DNA of 32,215 bases, from positions 1-32,215 of the IMG/VR virus record IMGVR_UViG_3300010158_000211. One strand, 5' to 3'. A model generated the notes under the pieces. It did no database searches. It worked only from the letters and a program-made list of their open reading frames with translations, and was not told where the DNA came from. A program made the translations under genes and the position numbers. The first letter of the stretch is position 1; every line of letters begins with the position of its first letter. This stretch comes from a virus. Of this stretch, positions 1,962-32,213 are shown piece by piece.

Positions 1962-2414
1962 TTACTCCGACACACGTAATATGTATGTCTTCTTCTTAAA
2001 GAAGAAGTCACCAGTTGTCAACGGTTTTGACCACCCATTCTTCTTAGCTTCACTTGCGGATTTAAACAGATTGAGCTCTGCAAGTAAAGAGGGGAAATGC
2101 GTGTGTTCAGTATTGGCCAATGACACAGTCACTAGCTGGATAGGGTACAGGTCTGAATCATCGTCGGGGAATACGTCCCAAGACAGTTCCCACCATCCTG
2201 CCCACTTGCCAATGTACATGTGATATACATGACTGCAAAGACTGTAATGGTCTTTCCACATTGCGTTGTCGGTTAGTTTCAAAATCGCAATGAATCGCTC
2301 ATAGGTGGGCCAACTGTAGCCGTCGGAGCTCTGTTTGGCAACATAGGCCACTGTGCGTCTGATGTCACTGGGCTCTAAATCCTGCCATATTCCCGATGGT
2401 CTAATTTGTGTCAT
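1962..2414 (-). CDS. Hypothetical protein (150 aa)
   Basis: A soluble protein of 150 residues rich in Trp and Tyr (WPTYERFIAILKLTDN, WAGWWELSWDVFPDDD), with an odd Lys-rich C-terminus (FFFKKKTYILRVSE). No family recognised. Its ATG overlaps the stop of the upstream small membrane protein as ATGA (2411-2414). Confidence 0.6.
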   Translation of the reverse strand: MTQIRPSGIWQDLEPSDIRRTVAYVAKQSSDGYSWPTYERFIAILKLTDNAMWKDHYSLCSHVYHMYIGKWAGWWELSWDVFPDDDSDLYPIQLVTVSLANTEHTHFPSLLAELNLFKSASEAKKNGWSKPLTTGDFFFKKKTYILRVSE

Positions 2415-2599
2415 TCGTAGTCTCTGTTTTTCAATTCGATTATCAACGCTTCGATCTTGTCAAGTTTTTCCATTCTGTCGTTGAATCGGATTTCAGCGTG
2501 GGCATTATACTGATCTAGAATTCGATGCTCGTGGTGTGAAATAGTTACTCCAATTGTTATTGCAAATATTATTCCAATAAATGCACCAACTGCTGCCAT
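2411..2599 (-). CDS. Single-pass small membrane protein (62 aa)
   Basis: An N-terminal hydrophobic segment (MAAVGAFIGIIFAITIGVTI) is followed by a charged, probably coiled-coil cytoplasmic tail (NDRMEKLDKIEALIIELKNR). I set the start at the ATG 2597-2599. A TTG at 2615-2617, with GGGGA just upstream and immediately after the RNA ligase stop, is an alternative that adds six residues. The gene follows the RNA ligase catalytic ORF and overlaps the next gene by 4 bases. Function unknown. Confidence 0.55.
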   Translation of the reverse strand: MAAVGAFIGIIFAITIGVTISHHEHRILDQYNAHAEIRFNDRMEKLDKIEALIIELKNRDYE

Positions 2600-10734: not shown

Positions 10735-10826
<92 letters not shown>

Positions 10827-10904: not shown

Positions 10905-10922
10905 ACAGCATAGGAGTTGCGT

Positions 10923-11540
10923 ATGAAATTACAAACTATAATAATGGCACTGTTTTCTATACTAGTGTTGGGAATATCATCAGCCGCTGCACATACTCTT
11001 GGCCTTTGCCATGGTCAATATGCACTGTGTGCAGCATCTGCCACTGTGCCCACTGGTCGTACTATGACAATAAACGGCAAGGTTTTCAAGGAAGGTGCAG
11101 CAGTTTGCCCAATCTTGGAAGGCGACAGCATTGCAGACTTGGATCTCATGGATGGCAGTTGTGACAGCGAGCCTGGCAAGGTATGGAGTCTGTTTGGTGT
11201 ACCACCTGTGACCAGCTATCCACAGGCACCATCATGGGCTGCTGCACCTGCACAGTTTCGTTCATTTACAATTGGCGACACACCTGAAACTGGTATGAGC
11301 AACATGTGGAGTTATCCCTGTGATATTCAAGCAACGCCTGTGAATGGTGCCAAGCTGGCCACTTGTTATGGTCCTATCATGGAAAGTCCATGGACACATC
11401 GTCATGTTAAACAGGGTCAAATTGGATTTACACAGGCTGCACCTGGTGCTTCATATCCTGTAGGGGGCAATGCACCCAACGAGTCTGCGATCACTGACGG
11501 CGATTGGGGTTCTATACTCAAGCCTGCGCAGAGTAACTAA
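10923..11540 (+). CDS. Secreted protein with Sec signal peptide (205 aa)
   Basis: A clear signal peptide: MKLQTIIMALFSILVLGISS then AAA-HTLG, with likely cleavage after residue 23. The mature part has six cysteines (in GLCHG, ALCAA, AAVCPI, DGSCDS, YPCDI and ATCYG), which could form three disulfides in the periplasm. Phrases such as PTGRTMTINGKVFKEGAAVCPIL and IADLDLMDGSC look like a conserved bacterial periplasmic family of unknown function. The ATG at 10923 has GGAG 6 bases upstream; an in-frame TTG at 10917 is less likely. It is convergent with the pqqA-like gene, shares a terminator with it, and is flanked by tRNA genes. It could be host-derived. Confidence 0.75.
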   Translation: MKLQTIIMALFSILVLGISSAAAHTLGLCHGQYALCAASATVPTGRTMTINGKVFKEGAAVCPILEGDSIADLDLMDGSCDSEPGKVWSLFGVPPVTSYPQAPSWAAAPAQFRSFTIGDTPETGMSNMWSYPCDIQATPVNGAKLATCYGPIMESPWTHRHVKQGQIGFTQAAPGASYPVGGNAPNESAITDGDWGSILKPAQSN

Positions 11541-11542
11541 CA

Positions 11543-11574
11543 AAAATGCCCTGCCATAATGGCAGGGCATTTTA
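11543..11574. terminator. Bidirectional Rho-independent terminator
   Basis: AAATGCCCTGCCA / TGGCAGGGCATTT forms a stem of 12-13 bp with a TAA loop (11557-11559) and T-runs on both strands. It can end transcripts of the secreted protein (plus) and of the pqqA-like gene (minus). Confidence 0.9.
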
Positions 11575-11614
11575 CATAACCAGTATTAAGGTAACCGGCA
11601 ACCCTTATTCTCTA

Positions 11615-11695
11615 TTACTTCAAAGCAGCCTTAGCATACATGTTGATTTCCATGCCACAAGCAACTTCTGCAACTTTAGGTGTATTCCAAGTCAT
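11615..11695 (-). CDS. pqqA: PQQ precursor peptide PqqA-like (26 aa)
   Basis: The 26-codon frame begins MTWNTPKVAEVACG and continues MEINMYAKAALK. It aligns without gaps to bacterial PqqA, the ribosomally made precursor of pyrroloquinoline quinone: Trp3, Pro6, Glu10, Gly14, Met15, then Glu16 and Tyr20. Glu16 and Tyr20 are the residues PqqE cross-links to build PQQ. AAGGAG lies 9 bases before the ATG. A near-consensus promoter and a 5' palindrome lie upstream, and a strong terminator follows, so this is a complete single-gene unit of about 190 bases of RNA. No pqqB, C, D or E gene is in the window, so host enzymes would be needed. Short length is the only caution. Confidence 0.8.
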   Translation of the reverse strand: MTWNTPKVAEVACGMEINMYAKAALK

Positions 11696-11714
11696 TTGTA
11701 GTCTCCTTGTTGTT

Positions 11715-11729
11715 GGTAAACTGTTTACC
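11715..11729 (-). promoter_or_regulatory. Palindrome in the pqqA-like leader
   Basis: GGTAAAC-T-GTTTACC is a perfect 7-bp inverted repeat just after the predicted transcription start and about 20 bases before the ATG. It could be an operator or a 5' stabilising hairpin. Confidence 0.4.
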
Positions 11730-11738
11730 GTAGTATAA

Positions 11739-11769
11739 TATTTATAAACTGGTTGTGTGTTTTTGTCAA
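11739..11769 (-). promoter_or_regulatory. Promoter of the pqqA-like gene (sigma70 type overlapping TATAAATA)
   Basis: Minus strand: TTGACA (11764-11769), 17 bases, TATAAA (11741-11746). The -10 lies inside a perfect T4-late-type TATAAATA (11739-11746). The predicted start near 11734 gives a leader of about 40 bases. This is the best-matching promoter in the window and might serve both early and late transcription. Confidence 0.7.
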
Positions 11770-11834: not shown

Positions 11835-11908
11835 TGGTGCCCCAGGAGAGGATCGAACTCCCGTCTGCTGATTACTAATCAGCTGCTACGCCACTCAGCT
11901 ACTAGGGC
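11835..11908 (-). tRNA. tRNA-Thr (anticodon AGU)
   Basis: A 74-base tRNA. Acceptor GCCCTAG pairs with CTGGGGC, with discriminator A and an encoded CCA (11835-11837). D-stem is GCTG/TAGC, anticodon arm GCTGA-TTAGTAA-TCAGC, T-arm GGGAG-TTCGATC-CTCTC. The anticodon read from the loop is AGT. A34 is unusual for bacterial threonine tRNAs and would need inosine modification for wider decoding. Confidence 0.9.
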
Positions 11909-11953: not shown

Positions 11954-12030
11954 TGGTGGTCCCAACTGGAATCGAACCAGTGGCCTCAGAGGTAGGAACT
12001 CTGCGCTCTATCCAGCTGAGCTATGGAACC
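11954..12030 (-). tRNA. tRNA-Arg (anticodon CCU)
   Basis: A 77-base tRNA. Acceptor GGTTCCA pairs with TGGGACC, discriminator A, encoded CCA (11954-11956). The D-arm has TAGCTCAGCTGGATAGAGC, the anticodon arm is CAGAG-TTCCTAC-CTCTG and the T-loop TTCGATT. It reads the AGG codon. Confidence 0.95.
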
Positions 12031-12038
12031 GTTAAGTT

Positions 12039-12067
12039 AATTTATCATATTTTGACAATGATGTCAA
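12039..12067 (-). promoter_or_regulatory. Sigma70-type promoter of tRNA-Arg and tRNA-Thr
   Basis: Minus strand: TTGACA (12062-12067), 17 bases, TAAATT (12039-12044), with the predicted start just before the tRNA-Arg 5' end. The -35 overlaps the stop end of the 985-residue gene. Confidence 0.55.
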
Positions 12068-15021
12068 CTGAATACGATACCTTGACCAATTGTAATACCC
12101 TGTCCTATATCAATGGCAGCAGTTCCAACTATTGGCACCCAGTCTGCGGTATTGCTTACCAGTGTGGTAGTTGGTGCTGCAAACCAGTTCGCGCCACCTT
12201 TAGGTGTATTGTCTTTGATACTGAGATAGTTTGCTGCCACACTGCTGCCGCTCTTGCTGATTGTTGCAGCAGATCCGGACGTCACAGCATTGAGCGTGAC
12301 CAAACTGCCAGCAGTGCCTGCTAGCGTAAAGTTGCTCACAGTCTGCGTTGTGCCAGATGTCAAGGATATTGTGCTAGGATACGCAGTTGCAGCGATATCA
12401 TTAAACGTGTTGCTACCAGTCACAGTCAATGCACCCGCACCAGCTTGCACCAGTGTTGCTGCGAAGTTACTACCACCGCCTACAAATGTTTTGGCTGTAG
12501 CACCCGTCATTGAGATGTAGCCAGGTGCAACGCCGGCAGTTGAGGTAAAGTTTGTAGGTTGTGCATTGTTGAATGCAGTGGTTGTTACACCAGGGCATAC
12601 AATAGTGCCACCGTTAAATGTAATGTTTTTAGTACCAGCAGCAGTGGTAAATGCTGTACCCACTGTTAGTGTTTGACCGTTAAGATCCAGCGTACCGTTG
12701 GTAAGAGTGACTGCACGAGTGCTGCCAGCAGTCATTGCATCTTGTAAGGTCCATGCTCCGCCTACACCGTTAAAGGTTACAGGAAAATCTAATGTTTTAC
12801 CAGCTGAGGTTATGGTTTTACCTGAGGCAGTTGAGGCAAATGTCATTGCAGATGTGCTAGCCGTTAGTGTCATGGTGGGCGACAATATAAGATTACCGTA
12901 TATAAATGAGGCATTTATTGCACCTAATGTACCACCAAAACCAGTAAAGTTTACGTTTTTTGCTGCTGGTGCACCGACTCCCAGGAAGCTTAATGCATAT
13001 GTACCACCTGTAAAATTAAATGATATCGCATTGGTTTCTGTTGGTGAACCAGAAGACACAGTGATAGCAACTGCACCCGAGCTGGTAACATTGACCACTG
13101 GTGTACCTGTTACAGTTAAATTGAGAGCAGTTGCAGTGGCCCATACAGTACCTGTACCAGTAGCAGTTATATTGCCCGTGCCAAATGCAATAGTTCTAGT
13201 ATTACTGTTATTGGATGAGAATAATCCAGTTGTCAATACGTTGTTATTGAGATTCAATATACCTTGTGTCAAGGTAAACGTCAGTGTAGATCCCATTGTA
13301 AACGAATCTACCAATGTTAAACCTGTAGCAGTGTTGGTGTTTACAGTGATAGGCTGGGTCCACGTTCTGCCAGCAGAAGTAATATTTTGAGTGGACTTTT
13401 GCCCAGCAAGTGTTATTGTACCTGTACCAGTTGTGGTTACAGCAGACGTAAGTGTAATATCTCCATAAACTGTAAATGTGTTTGTGCCATTTGCAAACGT
13501 TAATGCAGCAGTTCTACCTGATAAGTTTAATGTGCCAATATTATAAATTGTGTTGGGGATAGTGATAGTAGTAGATGCATTGGGACTTGTATCATCAATA
13601 ATAACAGTATCCTGTGCCAATGGGAAGTTGTTTACAGCAGGAGTTCCGCCGGACGTAGTCGCCCATGCTGTTGCGTTCCAGTTAGCCCCTGCTGCCAAAT
13701 TCCAGTATTTGTTAACCCCTGCTGGAAAAGTTATAGTAGTTTCATCGTTGCCTTGGCAGTTGCCAAGTCTGGTGCCCGTCCAAGGGGTAGCAACTGTGCC
13801 CGCAGCTTTGATATCTGCAAAATCCACGTCGGCCAACGTAGCAAGAGTACCATTAAGAGTTATAGTACGCTGAGTACCAACAATATCTGATTTGACAAAA
13901 AATCTCGTAATCGCAGTATTTGCTGCACCAAAAGTAAGCGTGCCGTTTATAGTTTGGTTTGCAGCAAATATAACTCCTTTAACACCACCAGCAGCACTGG
14001 TAAATGTTAAATTATTAAAAGTATTTGTGCCGCTTATAGTTGGAAAATTGTTTGCACCGGTTGAGGTAAAACTCACATTATAGAACGTTAATCCACCACC
14101 GTTGAATGTTGTGTTAGCAGTACTGCTAACCAACGTGCTGGTACCTGCGTTGAATGTCAATCCGGTTGTAACAGTAAAATTAACAAACGTAGCAGTATTA
14201 GTAGATGTGATAGTAGACGACCCAAAATTTATAGTTCTTGTTGTGGTACTAGAACTATAAAGCGCACCCTGTGTCAGCGTCATATTAAAGTTGCCGGTGT
14301 CAAAAGTACCCCTGACAACTCTGAATGAGTCAGTACTGTTTATAGCACTAGTCCATGCACTACCCAGCGTCCATCCGCCGCCGGTACCATCTAATGCTAT
14401 ATAACTAGTGGTTGTACCTAAAATAGTCACACCATTTGTAGTAATGGTTTTACCAGTTGCAGTAGCACAGAATACTATTATTGGTGTTGCAGTCCACGTC
14501 AAGTTAGCGGCAGGCAGTGTCATACTACCGTAGATGCTCCAACAAGTCAATGCTGCGCCTGCTAATGTAACTGCACCACTTGCTGGTCCAGCAATATTCA
14601 CGTCAAGACAACTAGGTCCTGAATAAATCGTGATACTGGTAACTGTTTGTGATATGCTAAGGTTATAGGTACCAAGTCCGCCAGACCCTGTACCAAAGCT
14701 AGTAATATACGTGCCGCCAGCCACGTAGGTTGTAGCAGTTGGTCCGGTAGCTGTGCCAGCATAAATGCTGTTTCCAACTGCTAATGCGCCGCTGGTAACT
14801 ACAGTAATGGTTAGCACTGTACCTGCAATAGTACCTGTACCAACAAAGCCGTTGGCCATTGTTACTGTATAAAGTGTTGCGTTGGATGCACTGTCAAATA
14901 TCACACTGTCTGCATAGGTTGGTGCAGCAGCAAGTGTGGTTCTACCTGCATCGCTATACCAGTTTGTGGCAGTGTTAGAATCCCAGGTGCCTGATCCACC
15001 GCCCCAATATCGTGTGGCCAT
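12064..15021 (-). CDS. Large beta-repeat structural or adhesin-like protein (985 aa)
   Basis: Starts MATRYWGGGSGTWDSNTATNW, a start shared by many phage and environmental surface proteins. The rest is almost all Thr, Ser, Gly, Ala, Asn and Val with few charges, in irregular beta-helix-like repeats (patterns such as LTxTLTQGxLNLNNxxLT and TRTIAFGTGNITATGTGT). Residues about 60-135 hold the TGTIAGTVLTITVVTSGALA / GSGGLGTYNLS element, recurrent in phage tail-associated proteins. The C-terminus is DIGQGITIGQGIVF. It probably is a virion fibre or receptor-binding/decoration protein; repeat proteins of this kind could also be secreted adhesins. Its ribosome binding site GGAG lies in the last codons of the upstream 64-residue gene, so they are coupled. 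Confidence 0.7.
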   Translation of the reverse strand: MATRYWGGGSGTWDSNTATNWYSDAGRTTLAAAPTYADSVIFDSASNATLYTVTMANGFVGTGTIAGTVLTITVVTSGALAVGNSIYAGTATGPTATTYVAGGTYITSFGTGSGGLGTYNLSISQTVTSITIYSGPSCLDVNIAGPASGAVTLAGAALTCWSIYGSMTLPAANLTWTATPIIVFCATATGKTITTNGVTILGTTTSYIALDGTGGGWTLGSAWTSAINSTDSFRVVRGTFDTGNFNMTLTQGALYSSSTTTRTINFGSSTITSTNTATFVNFTVTTGLTFNAGTSTLVSSTANTTFNGGGLTFYNVSFTSTGANNFPTISGTNTFNNLTFTSAAGGVKGVIFAANQTINGTLTFGAANTAITRFFVKSDIVGTQRTITLNGTLATLADVDFADIKAAGTVATPWTGTRLGNCQGNDETTITFPAGVNKYWNLAAGANWNATAWATTSGGTPAVNNFPLAQDTVIIDDTSPNASTTITIPNTIYNIGTLNLSGRTAALTFANGTNTFTVYGDITLTSAVTTTGTGTITLAGQKSTQNITSAGRTWTQPITVNTNTATGLTLVDSFTMGSTLTFTLTQGILNLNNNVLTTGLFSSNNSNTRTIAFGTGNITATGTGTVWATATALNLTVTGTPVVNVTSSGAVAITVSSGSPTETNAISFNFTGGTYALSFLGVGAPAAKNVNFTGFGGTLGAINASFIYGNLILSPTMTLTASTSAMTFASTASGKTITSAGKTLDFPVTFNGVGGAWTLQDAMTAGSTRAVTLTNGTLDLNGQTLTVGTAFTTAAGTKNITFNGGTIVCPGVTTTAFNNAQPTNFTSTAGVAPGYISMTGATAKTFVGGGSNFAATLVQAGAGALTVTGSNTFNDIAATAYPSTISLTSGTTQTVSNFTLAGTAGSLVTLNAVTSGSAATISKSGSSVAANYLSIKDNTPKGGANWFAAPTTTLVSNTADWVPIVGTAAIDIGQGITIGQGIVFS

Positions 15022-16344: not shown

Positions 16345-16947
16345 TCAGTCAGACATCTTACGCTTGTCGATGACCACATCTGCCAGGCCATAGGCCACAG
16401 ATTCAGCAGCAGTCATAAACGTATCGCGGTCCATGTCGCGCTCAAACTCTTCATAAGTCTTGCCCACGCTGTTGTGATCCACATAGATCTGTGTGAGTTC
16501 AACTTTCATGCGTTCAATCTCACGTAGTGTAATAGCCATGTCGCTGACCATACCCTGTGCCCCACCTGAGGGCTGATGGATCATATGACGTGCATGCTTC
16601 ATAATATAGCGATGCCCAGGTGCACCTGCTTGTGCTAACAGTGACCCCATGCTTGCAGCTTGTCCCATGACAAATGTGTACACAGGGCATTGAATAAATT
16701 GCATTGTATCGAAAATACTCATACCAGCAGTGACTGATCCGCCTGGTGAATTAATATAGAAATTGATTGGCGACTTGGCATTTTCGCTTTCAAGAAACAG
16801 CAATTGTGCAACCAACAAGCTGGCACTGTGATTGTTAACATCAGTATCGAGTATAATCACTCGGTCGCGAAGTAATCTGCTGTATATATCGTAGCTGCGT
16901 TCGCCATTGGCGCTTTTTTCTACAACGATTGGCACTAGATTGGGCAT
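16345..16947 (-). CDS. clpP: ClpP-like ATP-dependent protease subunit (200 aa)
   Basis: The Ser-His-Asp triad is in place: Ser99 in GQAASMGS, His124 in HMIHQPSGG, and Asp173 in DMDRDTF, with spacing equal to E. coli ClpP (25 and 49 residues). [15 protein letters not shown] is the conserved oxyanion region and [16 protein letters not shown] the handle helix. Length is normal, with no long propeptide. The ATG at 16945-16947 has AAAGGAAA upstream. ClpP forms a tetradecamer fed by ClpA/ClpX; phage copies occur in T4-like aquatic phages and may mix with or replace the host protease, or act on virion proteins. Confidence 0.9.
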
Positions 16948-16981
16948 GGTATTTCCTTTGTATGTTATATTAAGTATAGTA

Positions 16982-17140
16982 TCAGTGACAGATTTTCTCA
17001 ATCTCGTCAGCAGTGCGGTCGCTCATTGCAAAGCCGGCAATGCAATTGTTCCTGTTGTAATCATTGACAGCTAACGAGCATGACATAGCAACAACTATAC
17101 CCACTATCATAATTACAAACCATTTTAGTTCCATTTCCAT
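16982..17140 (-). CDS. Small membrane-anchored protein (52 aa)
   Basis: [20 protein letters not shown] is a membrane anchor or uncleaved signal, followed by a short tail with two Cys ([16 protein letters not shown]) likely in the periplasm. The ATG at 17138-17140 has GGAG 9 bases upstream; a longer frame to 17245 would overlap the neighbour and lacks a site. Function unknown. Confidence 0.5.
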
Positions 17141-19040: not shown

Positions 19041-19649
19041 ATGCGCATCAATGAACTCACTGGTTACCGTTCCCATCCTGCTTATAAACAAGCAAGATCC
19101 ACGTTTGACGATACCACAGACAAATGGGCCATGCAGACTCGTCGCAAAGACAAACTGGAACAGTTTAGAACGTTTCTAGAAAAAAATGGCTTCAAGTTTA
19201 TAGACAAGGGATCGTTTGGCGCAGTATTTGAACGTCCTGGATATCCATGGGTATTTAAAATATTCAACAGGGATCCTGCATACTTACACTTCGTAAAGTA
19301 TGCCATGGCACATCAGGATAATCCACACTTGCCACGGATCAAAGGCATCATAAAAATCAACGACGATACCTATGCAGTGCGTATGGAACGCTTGAGTCCA
19401 ATACCGCTTGGCACAGAGCCTGCAATGTCACTGATACGTAAAATAGTCGGCATTGACAGCTATGGCGATCTCAGCGATGCAGATGTGGCATGGATAGACA
19501 AAAAGTTTCCAGGCATTTCTGCGTTTTTCAAAAGCTTTCCGTTGGGTGAGTTTGAATACGATCTACACTTACAAAACTTCATGCAGCGTGGCAAGACCAT
19601 GGTTATAGTAGACCCCATATATGATTATAGAGAAATGCAGGGCAACTGA
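19041..19649 (+). CDS. Protein-kinase-like protein 1 of 3 (202 aa)
   Basis: A compact kinase fold: glycine loop G57-SFG (IDKGSFGAVFE), Lys73 in WVFKIF, hinge TYAVRMERL, catalytic D174-LHLQN179 and metal Asp191 in VIVDP. DxHxxN plus a DP in place of DFG recalls aminoglycoside-kinase and small phage kinases. At 202 residues it lacks a large C-lobe. The N-terminus MRINELTGYRSHPAYKQARS is shared in style with the next two genes. No strong ribosome binding site is seen; a GCTAAATA element 6-13 bases before the ATG suggests a very short leader. The target could be a host protein or small molecule. Confidence 0.7.
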   Translation: MRINELTGYRSHPAYKQARSTFDDTTDKWAMQTRRKDKLEQFRTFLEKNGFKFIDKGSFGAVFERPGYPWVFKIFNRDPAYLHFVKYAMAHQDNPHLPRIKGIIKINDDTYAVRMERLSPIPLGTEPAMSLIRKIVGIDSYGDLSDADVAWIDKKFPGISAFFKSFPLGEFEYDLHLQNFMQRGKTMVIVDPIYDYREMQGN

Positions 19650-20251
19650 TGCAGCTACGTGATTTATTCGAACGTCACTATAAAAGCTTGCCAGCGTATC
19701 AGCAGGCTCACAGTGATTTCTCTGACACCAGTACGCATGGTGCAGCCATGCACGGCATGCTGAAATTTGATAAATTCATGCGTGAAAATGGATTTGAACT
19801 GCTGGGATCGGGCGGATTTGCCAACGTTTATGAACGACCAGGATATCCTTGGGTATTCAAAATCTTCACTGGTGATACAGCATACCTGTCATGGTTGGAA
19901 TATGTCACTGCCAATCAAGGCAACGAACATGTGCCTAAACTACGAGGTAAACCATTTAAAATCAACAACGGTACCTATGCCATACGCATGGAAAAATTAA
20001 CACCATTGCCCGGCAATTTCACGGATGATCCATTGCTTGATGCTGTTATGTATGGCGGGCTTCCACTTACACGCAAGTCTGAAAGCACTATTACAGATCT
20101 AGGGCATCCGGATTTATTGGCTGTTTTAAAAGCAATAATGAAAATTGCATATTCTAATAAAAATTACAACACAGATTTACATAGATATAATCTAATGATG
20201 CGCGGTAACACACCTGTTATAACAGACCCGCTTGCAGATTCCAGGGTATAA
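19649..20251 (+). CDS. Protein-kinase-like protein 2 of 3 (200 aa)
   Basis: Paralogue of both neighbours: SGGFANVYERPGYPWVFKIF holds the glycine loop and Lys71, NGTYAIRMEKLTPL the hinge, NTDLHRYNLMMRGNTPVITD the catalytic loop and metal Asp. The loop SGGFANV keeps two of the three usual glycines. It starts at the ATG overlapping the previous stop (TGATG), so expression is coupled. The N-terminus MQLRDLFERHYKSLPAYQQA matches that of protein 3. All key kinase residues are kept, so it is probably active. Confidence 0.7.
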   Translation: MQLRDLFERHYKSLPAYQQAHSDFSDTSTHGAAMHGMLKFDKFMRENGFELLGSGGFANVYERPGYPWVFKIFTGDTAYLSWLEYVTANQGNEHVPKLRGKPFKINNGTYAIRMEKLTPLPGNFTDDPLLDAVMYGGLPLTRKSESTITDLGHPDLLAVLKAIMKIAYSNKNYNTDLHRYNLMMRGNTPVITDPLADSRV

Positions 20252-20254
20252 AAC

Positions 20255-20974
20255 ATGCGCTTACAACAACTATTCCTCAACGAAAACACAGTGCTTGATG
20301 AACTCACACACTACAAAAACTTGCCTGCGTACAAAACTGCGCAAGATACATTTGCAGGTGTTGGACGTGGTGGTCATTACAGTGCCATGAAAAAGTTCAA
20401 CGAGTTCATGAATGAACACGGCTTTAGGAAAATGGGCGAAGGTGCATTTGGTGCAGTGTATGAAAAGGAAGGATATCCATGGGTATTCAAAGTATTTCAT
20501 GGAGATCCTGCATACTTGGATTTCTTACGCTATGCCATTGCACATCAAAATAACCCACATGTGCCAAAGTTCAAAGGCAAACCCTTCAAAATAGATGATA
20601 AAACCTATGCCATACGCATGGAAAAACTATATGAATGGACCAGTTACTTTGATCTTATGGGACATACCAAATCATTGATGTATGCTGTATCTTCGTGGAG
20701 ACCGCCTGTGTCACCAGACCAAGAAGCAGTGTTTAAGTCACGCGGTGCCGCAGGATTAATACCAGTACTCAACAATCTTGCTCAATTGTGTGGTAGTAAA
20801 AATTACAGACTAGACCTACACCATGGTAATATTATGAGACGTGGCAATACCATAGTAATAGTAGATCCTCTGGTAGACGATGCGAGTTTGCAAAGAAGTG
20901 AACCAAATATGGCGCCGCCTGATGAATCGCAACAGTCCACTCAACCGGGCAGATTTGAACCCAGTTCAAAGTGA
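20255..20974 (+). CDS. Protein-kinase-like protein 3 of 3 (239 aa)
   Basis: The most complete copy: GEGAFGAVYEKEGYPWVFKV with a canonical GxGxFGxV loop and Lys79, KTYAIRMEKL hinge, RLDLHHGNIMRRGNTIVIVD catalytic loop and metal Asp. It has a 10-residue longer N-terminus (MRLQQLFLNENTVLDELTHY) and a Ser/Pro-rich tail of about 25 residues after the kinase fold. The last 34 bases overlap the convergent gene at 20941. Tandem triplication with retained catalytic residues argues for selection for several related substrates. Confidence 0.7.
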   Translation: MRLQQLFLNENTVLDELTHYKNLPAYKTAQDTFAGVGRGGHYSAMKKFNEFMNEHGFRKMGEGAFGAVYEKEGYPWVFKVFHGDPAYLDFLRYAIAHQNNPHVPKFKGKPFKIDDKTYAIRMEKLYEWTSYFDLMGHTKSLMYAVSSWRPPVSPDQEAVFKSRGAAGLIPVLNNLAQLCGSKNYRLDLHHGNIMRRGNTIVIVDPLVDDASLQRSEPNMAPPDESQQSTQPGRFEPSSK

Positions 20975-31724: not shown

Positions 31725-32213
31725 TTACAGTTGTACTGTTGGAAACAATACAGTAGTCATAAATTCTGTAGCAAGTTCATCGCCTAACAGATTCTTAATG
31801 GCTTTTACAGTATGCTCATTTTTACGTTGCTGTATGCAATATCTATCCTGTGCGGCTATGATATTAGCAGACAGGTGTGTATCAGGCGTTAAGCTATCAA
31901 GGTATTGTGCTAATACCAACTTTGCATCGTCTGCAATTGCTATCAACTCATCGCCTGTTGGTCTGCATGCAATCCAATTTTCGCCAAATATGTCGCCCCA
32001 TTCTGGACGTTGTCTAGGACGTTCAATTGGCAATGTGGTAAAAGGCTGACTGGGTAATACAGTGGGACTGAGATCCCAAAACAATCCAGTTACTTTGCTT
32101 TCGCCTGCTATAACATCAAATCCAAATATAGGAGCAGGATCGGTAACATGCGGAAATACACAGCAATGTACCACCATGAAACGATCCTGATTAAAAATTT
32201 CCACATGCGCCAT
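31725..32213 (-). CDS. Hypothetical protein (162 aa; start at window edge)
   Basis: A soluble protein with MAHVEIFNQDRFMVVHCCVF, a PRQRPEWGDIFGENWIACRP segment and a helical C-terminus (LGDELATEFMTTVLF). The ATG at 32211-32213 is 2 bases from the window edge, so a longer start cannot be excluded. No family recognised. It lies 11 bases upstream of the WPEL-module gene and probably shares its message. Confidence 0.55.
   Translation of the reverse strand: MAHVEIFNQDRFMVVHCCVFPHVTDPAPIFGFDVIAGESKVTGLFWDLSPTVLPSQPFTTLPIERPRQRPEWGDIFGENWIACRPTGDELIAIADDAKLVLAQYLDSLTPDTHLSANIIAAQDRYCIQQRKNEHTVKAIKNLLGDELATEFMTTVLFPTVQL

Follow-up and report, generated by a model that had tools for sequence, protein, structure and literature searches.

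A 26-codon open reading frame resembling pqqA lies on the minus strand of the window, by which we mean the whole stretch of 32,215 nucleotides analysed here (IMG/VR virus record IMGVR_UViG_3300010158_000211). The frame is convergent with a gene of a phage protein family, and ARAGORN finds tRNA genes on both sides. The features of the region are listed below.

10735-10826, minus strand: tRNA-Ser, downstream of pqqA
10917-11540, plus strand: convergent gene for a 207-amino-acid protein of a phage family without annotation
11573-11543, minus strand: strong intrinsic terminator, with a 14-bp stem and a T-rich tail
11695-11615, minus strand: pqqA, from ATG (11695-11693) to TAA, product MTWNTPKVAEVACGMEINMYAKAALK
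11708-11703, minus strand: Shine-Dalgarno sequence AAGGAG, 7 nucleotides before the ATG
11711-11580, minus strand: cassette common to the window and the otherwise different contig L002, containing the Shine-Dalgarno sequence, pqqA and a small downstream hairpin
11729-11715, minus strand: leader palindrome GGTAAACAGTTTACC, with a 6-bp stem and a 3-nucleotide loop
11746-11739, minus strand: TATAAATA, a T4-late-like box that overlaps the TATAAA element
11769-11741, minus strand: possible promoter matching the consensus, TTGACA (11769-11764), 17 nucleotides, TATAAA (11746-11741)
11835-11908, minus strand: tRNA-Thr, upstream of pqqA
11954-12030, minus strand: tRNA-Arg, upstream of pqqA

The pqqA gene and its expression signals

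The original prediction placed a PqqA frame of 26 codons at 11615-11695 and named Trp3, Pro6, Glu10, Gly14, Met15, Glu16 and Tyr20, all of which are present in the peptide; the strand, which it left unstated, is minus (the plus strand reads LLQSSLSIHVDF...). The peptide matches TIGR02107, the equivalog for "pyrroloquinoline quinone precursor peptide PqqA", with 39.5 bits (E = 3.5e-10; cut-off 20 bits) and PF08042 with 37.4 bits (E = 2.3e-9; gathering score 21.1 bits). Both scores are far above the curated cut-offs and both matches span nearly the whole profile, so the proposed kinship holds. At 26 residues the peptide falls within the 23 to 29 amino acids of PqqA and carries the Glu-x-x-x-Tyr cross-link pair (Glu16 and Tyr20). 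In an alignment of 13 sequences W3, P6, G14, E16 and Y20 are invariant. Judged by its sequence, the frame is a genuine pqqA.

The gene was also predicted to have a full set of expression signals, and these fared differently. The AAGGAG is present and is identical in contigs L002 and L003, two viral relatives with the same type of PqqA. The terminator was confirmed, and the 72-nucleotide 3' region that contains it (11543-11614) folds at -29.4 kcal/mol (z = -4.26). The terminator is close to a palindrome and so can serve the convergent gene as well. The proposed promoter reads as described and both of its elements are conserved in L003, but TTGACA is not found in L002, a generic promoter scan did not list the site, and such sites are not in excess in the region; the promoter is plausible. 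The predicted leader palindrome likewise exists, and is conserved in L003 as GGTAAACAATTTACC but absent in L002. Its class shows a weak enrichment, in that leader hairpins with stems of at least 7 bp precede 26% of phage pqqA genes and 19% of the other intergenic genes that have a Shine-Dalgarno sequence on the same contigs, a slight difference (Mann-Whitney p = 0.016). Peptide, Shine-Dalgarno sequence and terminator are solid evidence, and promoter and leader hairpin weak evidence.

Two candidate control elements were dropped. We abandoned the idea that phage pqqA generally has a T4-late promoter, since TATAAATA occurs in 6 of 123 upstream regions and the window shows no excess of it (3 found, 1.4 expected). 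The idea of a leader RNA specific to pqqA was given up because hairpins are only marginally commoner here than before other genes, and in an Rfam search over the window tRNAs were the sole matches. The convergent 207-amino-acid protein is predicted to be secreted, from a reading of its N-terminus. An 82% identical copy adjoins pqqA in L003; 12 other relatives have no PqqA in the fetched flanks, and a general linkage between the two genes was therefore rejected.

Occurrence of pqqA in phages

A degenerate pattern for CGMEINMY identified L002 (48.8 kb) and L003 (36.2 kb) as two further IMG/VR contigs, both of which encode MAWNTPKVAEVACGMEINMYAKAALK, the same peptide as that of the window apart from Thr2/Ala2. 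Among the three coding sequences pN/pS is approximately 0.06. L003 is syntenic with the window and 85% identical over the pqqA unit. The match to L002 (blastn, 91% over 134 nucleotides) reaches from the leader, just before the Shine-Dalgarno sequence, to a small hairpin beyond the stop codon, short of the terminator. All three contigs have pqqA in tRNA clusters. A 3' repeat of L002, GGTTGCCAGTTCCCTTAATAACTGG, has one degenerate copy just after pqqA in the window, where no other convincing copy was found. L003 also carries a GOLLD RNA (1990-2458, plus strand, 188 bits) with a tRNA inside.

An RNaseH-like protein encoded near the window's pqqA is 86% identical to one in a viral contig of 518,643 bp, so that the window may be only part of a very large phage genome. 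This 518-kb contig (L283) has no PqqA. Most relatives recognized by the RNaseH-like protein lack PqqA too, so the gene is accessory in this lineage, and four others, found by profile search, carry the different type MWTKPTAQD[TK]RFGFEVTMYIAAR. The PqqA type switches between alpha-like and Methylophilales/gamma-like within this one phage lineage, as host matching predicts.

Many more viral contigs carry such genes. The loose codon pattern W..P...[ED]...G.E[VI][TNK].Y matches at least 120 IMG/VR contigs, and all 120 listed decode to frames of 23 to 27 amino acids that begin with ATG and end with a stop codon, nearly all preceded by a purine-rich Shine-Dalgarno sequence. A pattern restricted to the alpha-like G.EIN.Y also matches at least 120 contigs, 100 of them new among the matches listed. 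The two patterns give at least 220 distinct contigs, all with complete, ATG-started PqqA-like frames, and at least 227 viral contigs with PqqA result when L002, L003, the four found by profile and the window are included. Since the alpha-like type makes up 20 of the 120 loose-pattern matches listed, yet by itself exceeds 120, the IMG/VR total is probably several hundred, a rough estimate given that the choice of matches listed is unspecified.

Some of these loci have features of their own. The motif TGCGGTC....GACAACC[AG]GC is conserved just upstream of alpha-type phage pqqA in L015, L019, L021, L028, L036, L070, L086 and L120, and perhaps represents a structured leader; Rfam gave no match to this region in the four loci searched. 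In L206 and L259, PqqA-like cores are followed by long, acidic, Asp-rich tails of halophile-like character, and these peptides are possibly a different class of PqqA or a different RiPP.

Cultured phages carry the gene as well. A tblastn search of 50,697 phage records (INPHARED) with a Methylophilales-type peptide matched nine records of Methylophilales phage isolates, of an incomplete set (taxonomy also names MEP431-434, HIM624-A, phiMB624-A and Venkman EXVC038S). The nine are Methylophilaceae phage P19250A, Methylophilales phages Venkman EXVC282S, MEP301, MEP401 and MEP402, and four Melnitz strains. The search also matched a podovirus contig from spring water and a pair of contigs filed under Acinetobacter phage MD-2021a. 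We rejected MD-2021a (CAKLQF020000010.1) as a phage, since it is a piece of bacterial chromosome with ppk, pqqA, pqqB, pqqC and pqqE; the misfiled contig served as a positive control. No Pseudomonas phage was matched among the 50,697 records, though the query is close to a PqqA peptide that we take to be that of Pseudomonas, and in this search the association is with phages of methylotrophs. Neither the window peptide nor an alpha-type peptide had a tblastn match in isolate phages, and the 227-base window unit had no DNA relative among them.

None of seven genuine phage records inspected has a PqqA feature, and the place is either blank or occupied by a hypothetical ORF on the opposite strand. 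Common gene callers have a default minimum of 90 nucleotides. The isolate genes measure 72 to 75 nucleotides, and phage pqqA, at 72 to 81 nucleotides, is probably missed by annotation on account of its length. Surveys of auxiliary genes made so far under-count it, since the usual annotation does not see it. PQQ goes unmentioned in the papers on MEP301, MEP401/402 and Venkman, and in the Melnitz paper it appears solely as an ingredient of the medium.

Purifying selection and absence of PqqE

For Methylophilales-type phage genes, pN/pS calculated from 73 copies (68 distinct DNAs, 29 peptides) is 0.15. The ratio is 0.22 at codons free of the search pattern and 0.11 at those after Glu9. Peptides identical in amino acids diverge widely in DNA, and one that occurs in 15 copies is encoded by 13 distinct DNAs. 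As these ratios show, phage pqqA is under purifying selection: a homolog of a host metabolic gene is being kept intact in phages. The conservation that the original prediction anticipated was found in both related and unrelated phages, and Glu16 and Tyr20, which it singled out, are retained even in the copies found by tblastn, where the search did not demand them.

PqqE (TIGR02109) was above the cut-off in none of 123 virus records, where three weak radical-SAM matches lay below it, and in none of six genuine phage records; most viral contigs are fragments, so the absence of other pqq genes is firm for the complete isolate genomes only. The same search found PqqE in all four cellular controls, namely three cellular genomes and the misfiled Acinetobacter contig, and the claim that these phages encode the precursor alone is upheld by this difference. 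The window record also lacks PqqE, and its pqqA is therefore a stand-alone gene that would rely on host enzymes, and not part of a cellular pqq operon.

Cellular relatives give an indication of the host. The nearest cellular peptide to that of the window is MAWTTPKIAEVACGMEINMYASAKKK, which is 79% identical and comes from an alphaproteobacterial MAG; other near peptides belong to the alphaproteobacterial Sulfitobacter and Albimonas. Related PqqA peptides occur in 46 of 197 genomes of the order to which the MAG belongs. By peptide likeness, the host of the window is probably alphaproteobacterial. Rhodobacterales-like cellular PqqA has at most 79% identity to the phage peptide and shares its W-x-x-P ... 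E-x-x-x-G-x-E-x-x-x-Y frame. However, PqqE is present in the cellular control genomes (in the Acinetobacter record it lies downstream), whereas the phage copy stands alone with its own Shine-Dalgarno sequence and terminator, and its C-terminal tail, AKAALK, is unseen in the cellular peptides examined. In streamlined alphaproteobacteria, with genomes of about 1 Mb, pqqA of a neighbouring type is present in two or three copies. Three copies are likewise found in a 3.0-Mb genome whose peptide is of the Methylophilales type, and both cases fit a need for much precursor.

A proposed role in host PQQ supply

We consider it quite probable that the window pqqA is a precursor-only auxiliary metabolic gene of a large T4-like phage and feeds PQQ synthesis by the host. 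The phage would make the 26-residue peptide, and host PqqD would present it to host PqqE, which would cross-link Glu16 and Tyr20, the residues that become PQQ. The cofactor would then be completed by host enzymes (PqqB, PqqC and one or more proteases) and would load periplasmic dehydrogenases, such as methanol dehydrogenases in methylotroph hosts. After shutdown of host transcription these enzymes would persist, but the PqqA peptide would not. Because one PqqA is destroyed per PQQ while PqqB to PqqE are catalytic, PqqA alone could sustain host PQQ after shutdown, and as the first component to run out it would be the only one worth encoding. These considerations suggest that phages keep the PQQ supply of the host going during infection, with a presumed benefit through PQQ-dependent oxidation. 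The original prediction had likewise proposed an auxiliary metabolic gene, and a phage gene that is conserved and comes without PqqE supports that reading; the effect on PQQ itself we infer.

Experiments on cellular systems bear on this proposal. In Acinetobacter, no PQQ is made when the PqqA Glu is changed to Asp or the Tyr to Phe, and PqqA expression exceeds that of PqqC or PqqE 20-fold (PMC2294125). In Acetobacter, extra pqqAB increased PQQ by 29%, versus eightfold for pqqABCDE (PMC7936290). The precursor is thus only partly limiting in uninfected cells, and the argument rests on the infected state.

A variant compatible with precursor supply is that PQQ in the window's host serves glucose, ethanol or another alcohol dehydrogenase instead of methanol oxidation. 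The window PqqA is of a type nearest to the alphaproteobacterial ones (Albimonas, Sulfitobacter and the MAG), as this variant would have it, but all isolate hosts of phage PqqA found here are Methylophilales methylotrophs, and related peptides occur in the streamlined alphaproteobacteria that have pqqA in several copies. We regard the variant as possible, though doubtful.

The phage peptide might instead act on the pathway as a decoy that titrates PqqD/PqqE, or as a regulator, and so lower or redirect host PQQ. Binding to PqqD and PqqE would make this feasible, and sequence data do not report flux. However, a decoy would be free to lose the cross-linked Glu and Tyr, yet both are kept together with the surrounding motif, even in isolate copies whose detection did not require them, and the carriers include phages of methylotrophs that rely on PQQ enzymes for their energy metabolism. 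Such a role is unlikely. We also give little credence to a functionless passenger in a tRNA-rich cargo region, although pqqA does sit among tRNA genes in the window, L002 and L003 and is accessory among their relatives. Purifying selection and a Shine-Dalgarno sequence and terminator of its own argue against a passenger, as do its recurrence in unrelated phage types and the fact that only 8 of 123 pqqA loci have tRNA genes within 1 kb. Misassigned cellular DNA, with the viral contigs being host pqq operons or binning errors, does occur, as in MD-2021a, but is extremely improbable here: complete isolate genomes carry pqqA, which refutes it for the isolates, no PqqE accompanies the gene in the 123 virus records, a terminase match is found in 24 of 48 PqqA-bearing virus records (nearly all above 20 kb; 20 matches exceed the family cut-off), and the window, itself an IMG/VR record, encodes members of phage families, among them T4-type RNA ligase 1 and a phage DNA ligase.

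Precursor supply by a phage has been proposed before. The Lake Baikal phage population VP_266, reported in 2020, encodes PqqA next to methanol dehydrogenase (PMC7678222), so phage PqqA is not new. There, too, it was proposed as an auxiliary metabolic gene for PQQ. VP_266 is T4-like, is assigned to Methylophilaceae and has a genome that also encodes methanol dehydrogenase, whereas the window has an alphaproteobacterial-type PqqA alone, in its own unit; the present work adds a survey across IMG/VR and isolates. One 72-kb PqqA-bearing virus record (L065) echoes the Baikal arrangement with a PQQ-dependent alcohol dehydrogenase at 34049-35731 (608 bits). Viral pqqA, pqqE and pqqD are also named, without detail, in a survey of sediment (PMC13188868). 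VP_266 is the only detailed report of phage PqqA in the literature searched, a body that leaves preprints and subscription papers, including the P19250A paper, outside. What seems new is that the gene is widespread though hidden, that Methylophilales isolates carry it unannotated, that some of the PqqA types are alphaproteobacterial and that the precursor comes alone.

A parallel is offered by cyanophage psbA, which encodes D1: the phage provides the single component of the host that is depleted most rapidly. The difference is that D1 is a damaged enzyme subunit, while PqqA is a consumed peptide substrate, a RiPP precursor. We lean towards the broader view that pqqA, without the rest of the pathway, is very common in phages that infect PQQ-dependent bacteria, methylotrophs above all. 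It would be a "consumable-only" gene that escapes annotation and through which phages directly influence methanol oxidation in lakes and oceans. A very common viral gene would thereby be tied to the cofactor of methanol dehydrogenase, and hence to C1 turnover in lakes and the sea. The underlying principle, by which phages encode what is consumed but not the enzymes, is testable in existing pairs: Venkman or Melnitz with Methylophilales H5P1, MEP401 or MEP402 with FZCC0133, and P19250A with IMCC19250.

Other genes of the window were noted in passing. A repetitive protein of 985 amino acids (12064-15021, minus strand) has no Pfam or PHROG match. A member of an iron-sulfur cluster assembly protein family (PF01883; 15974-16333, minus strand) adjoins a ClpP-like protease (16345-17001). 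Three tandem paralogous proteins of 200 to 239 amino acids are encoded at 19041-20974 on the plus strand, opposite to most genes, and the third matches phrog_15752, a T7 gp0.7-like protein kinase and inhibitor of host transcription (E = 1e-10). At the window end, a ferredoxin-dependent bilin reductase (PF05996, E = 5e-15; 31725-32213, minus strand) is another possible auxiliary gene.
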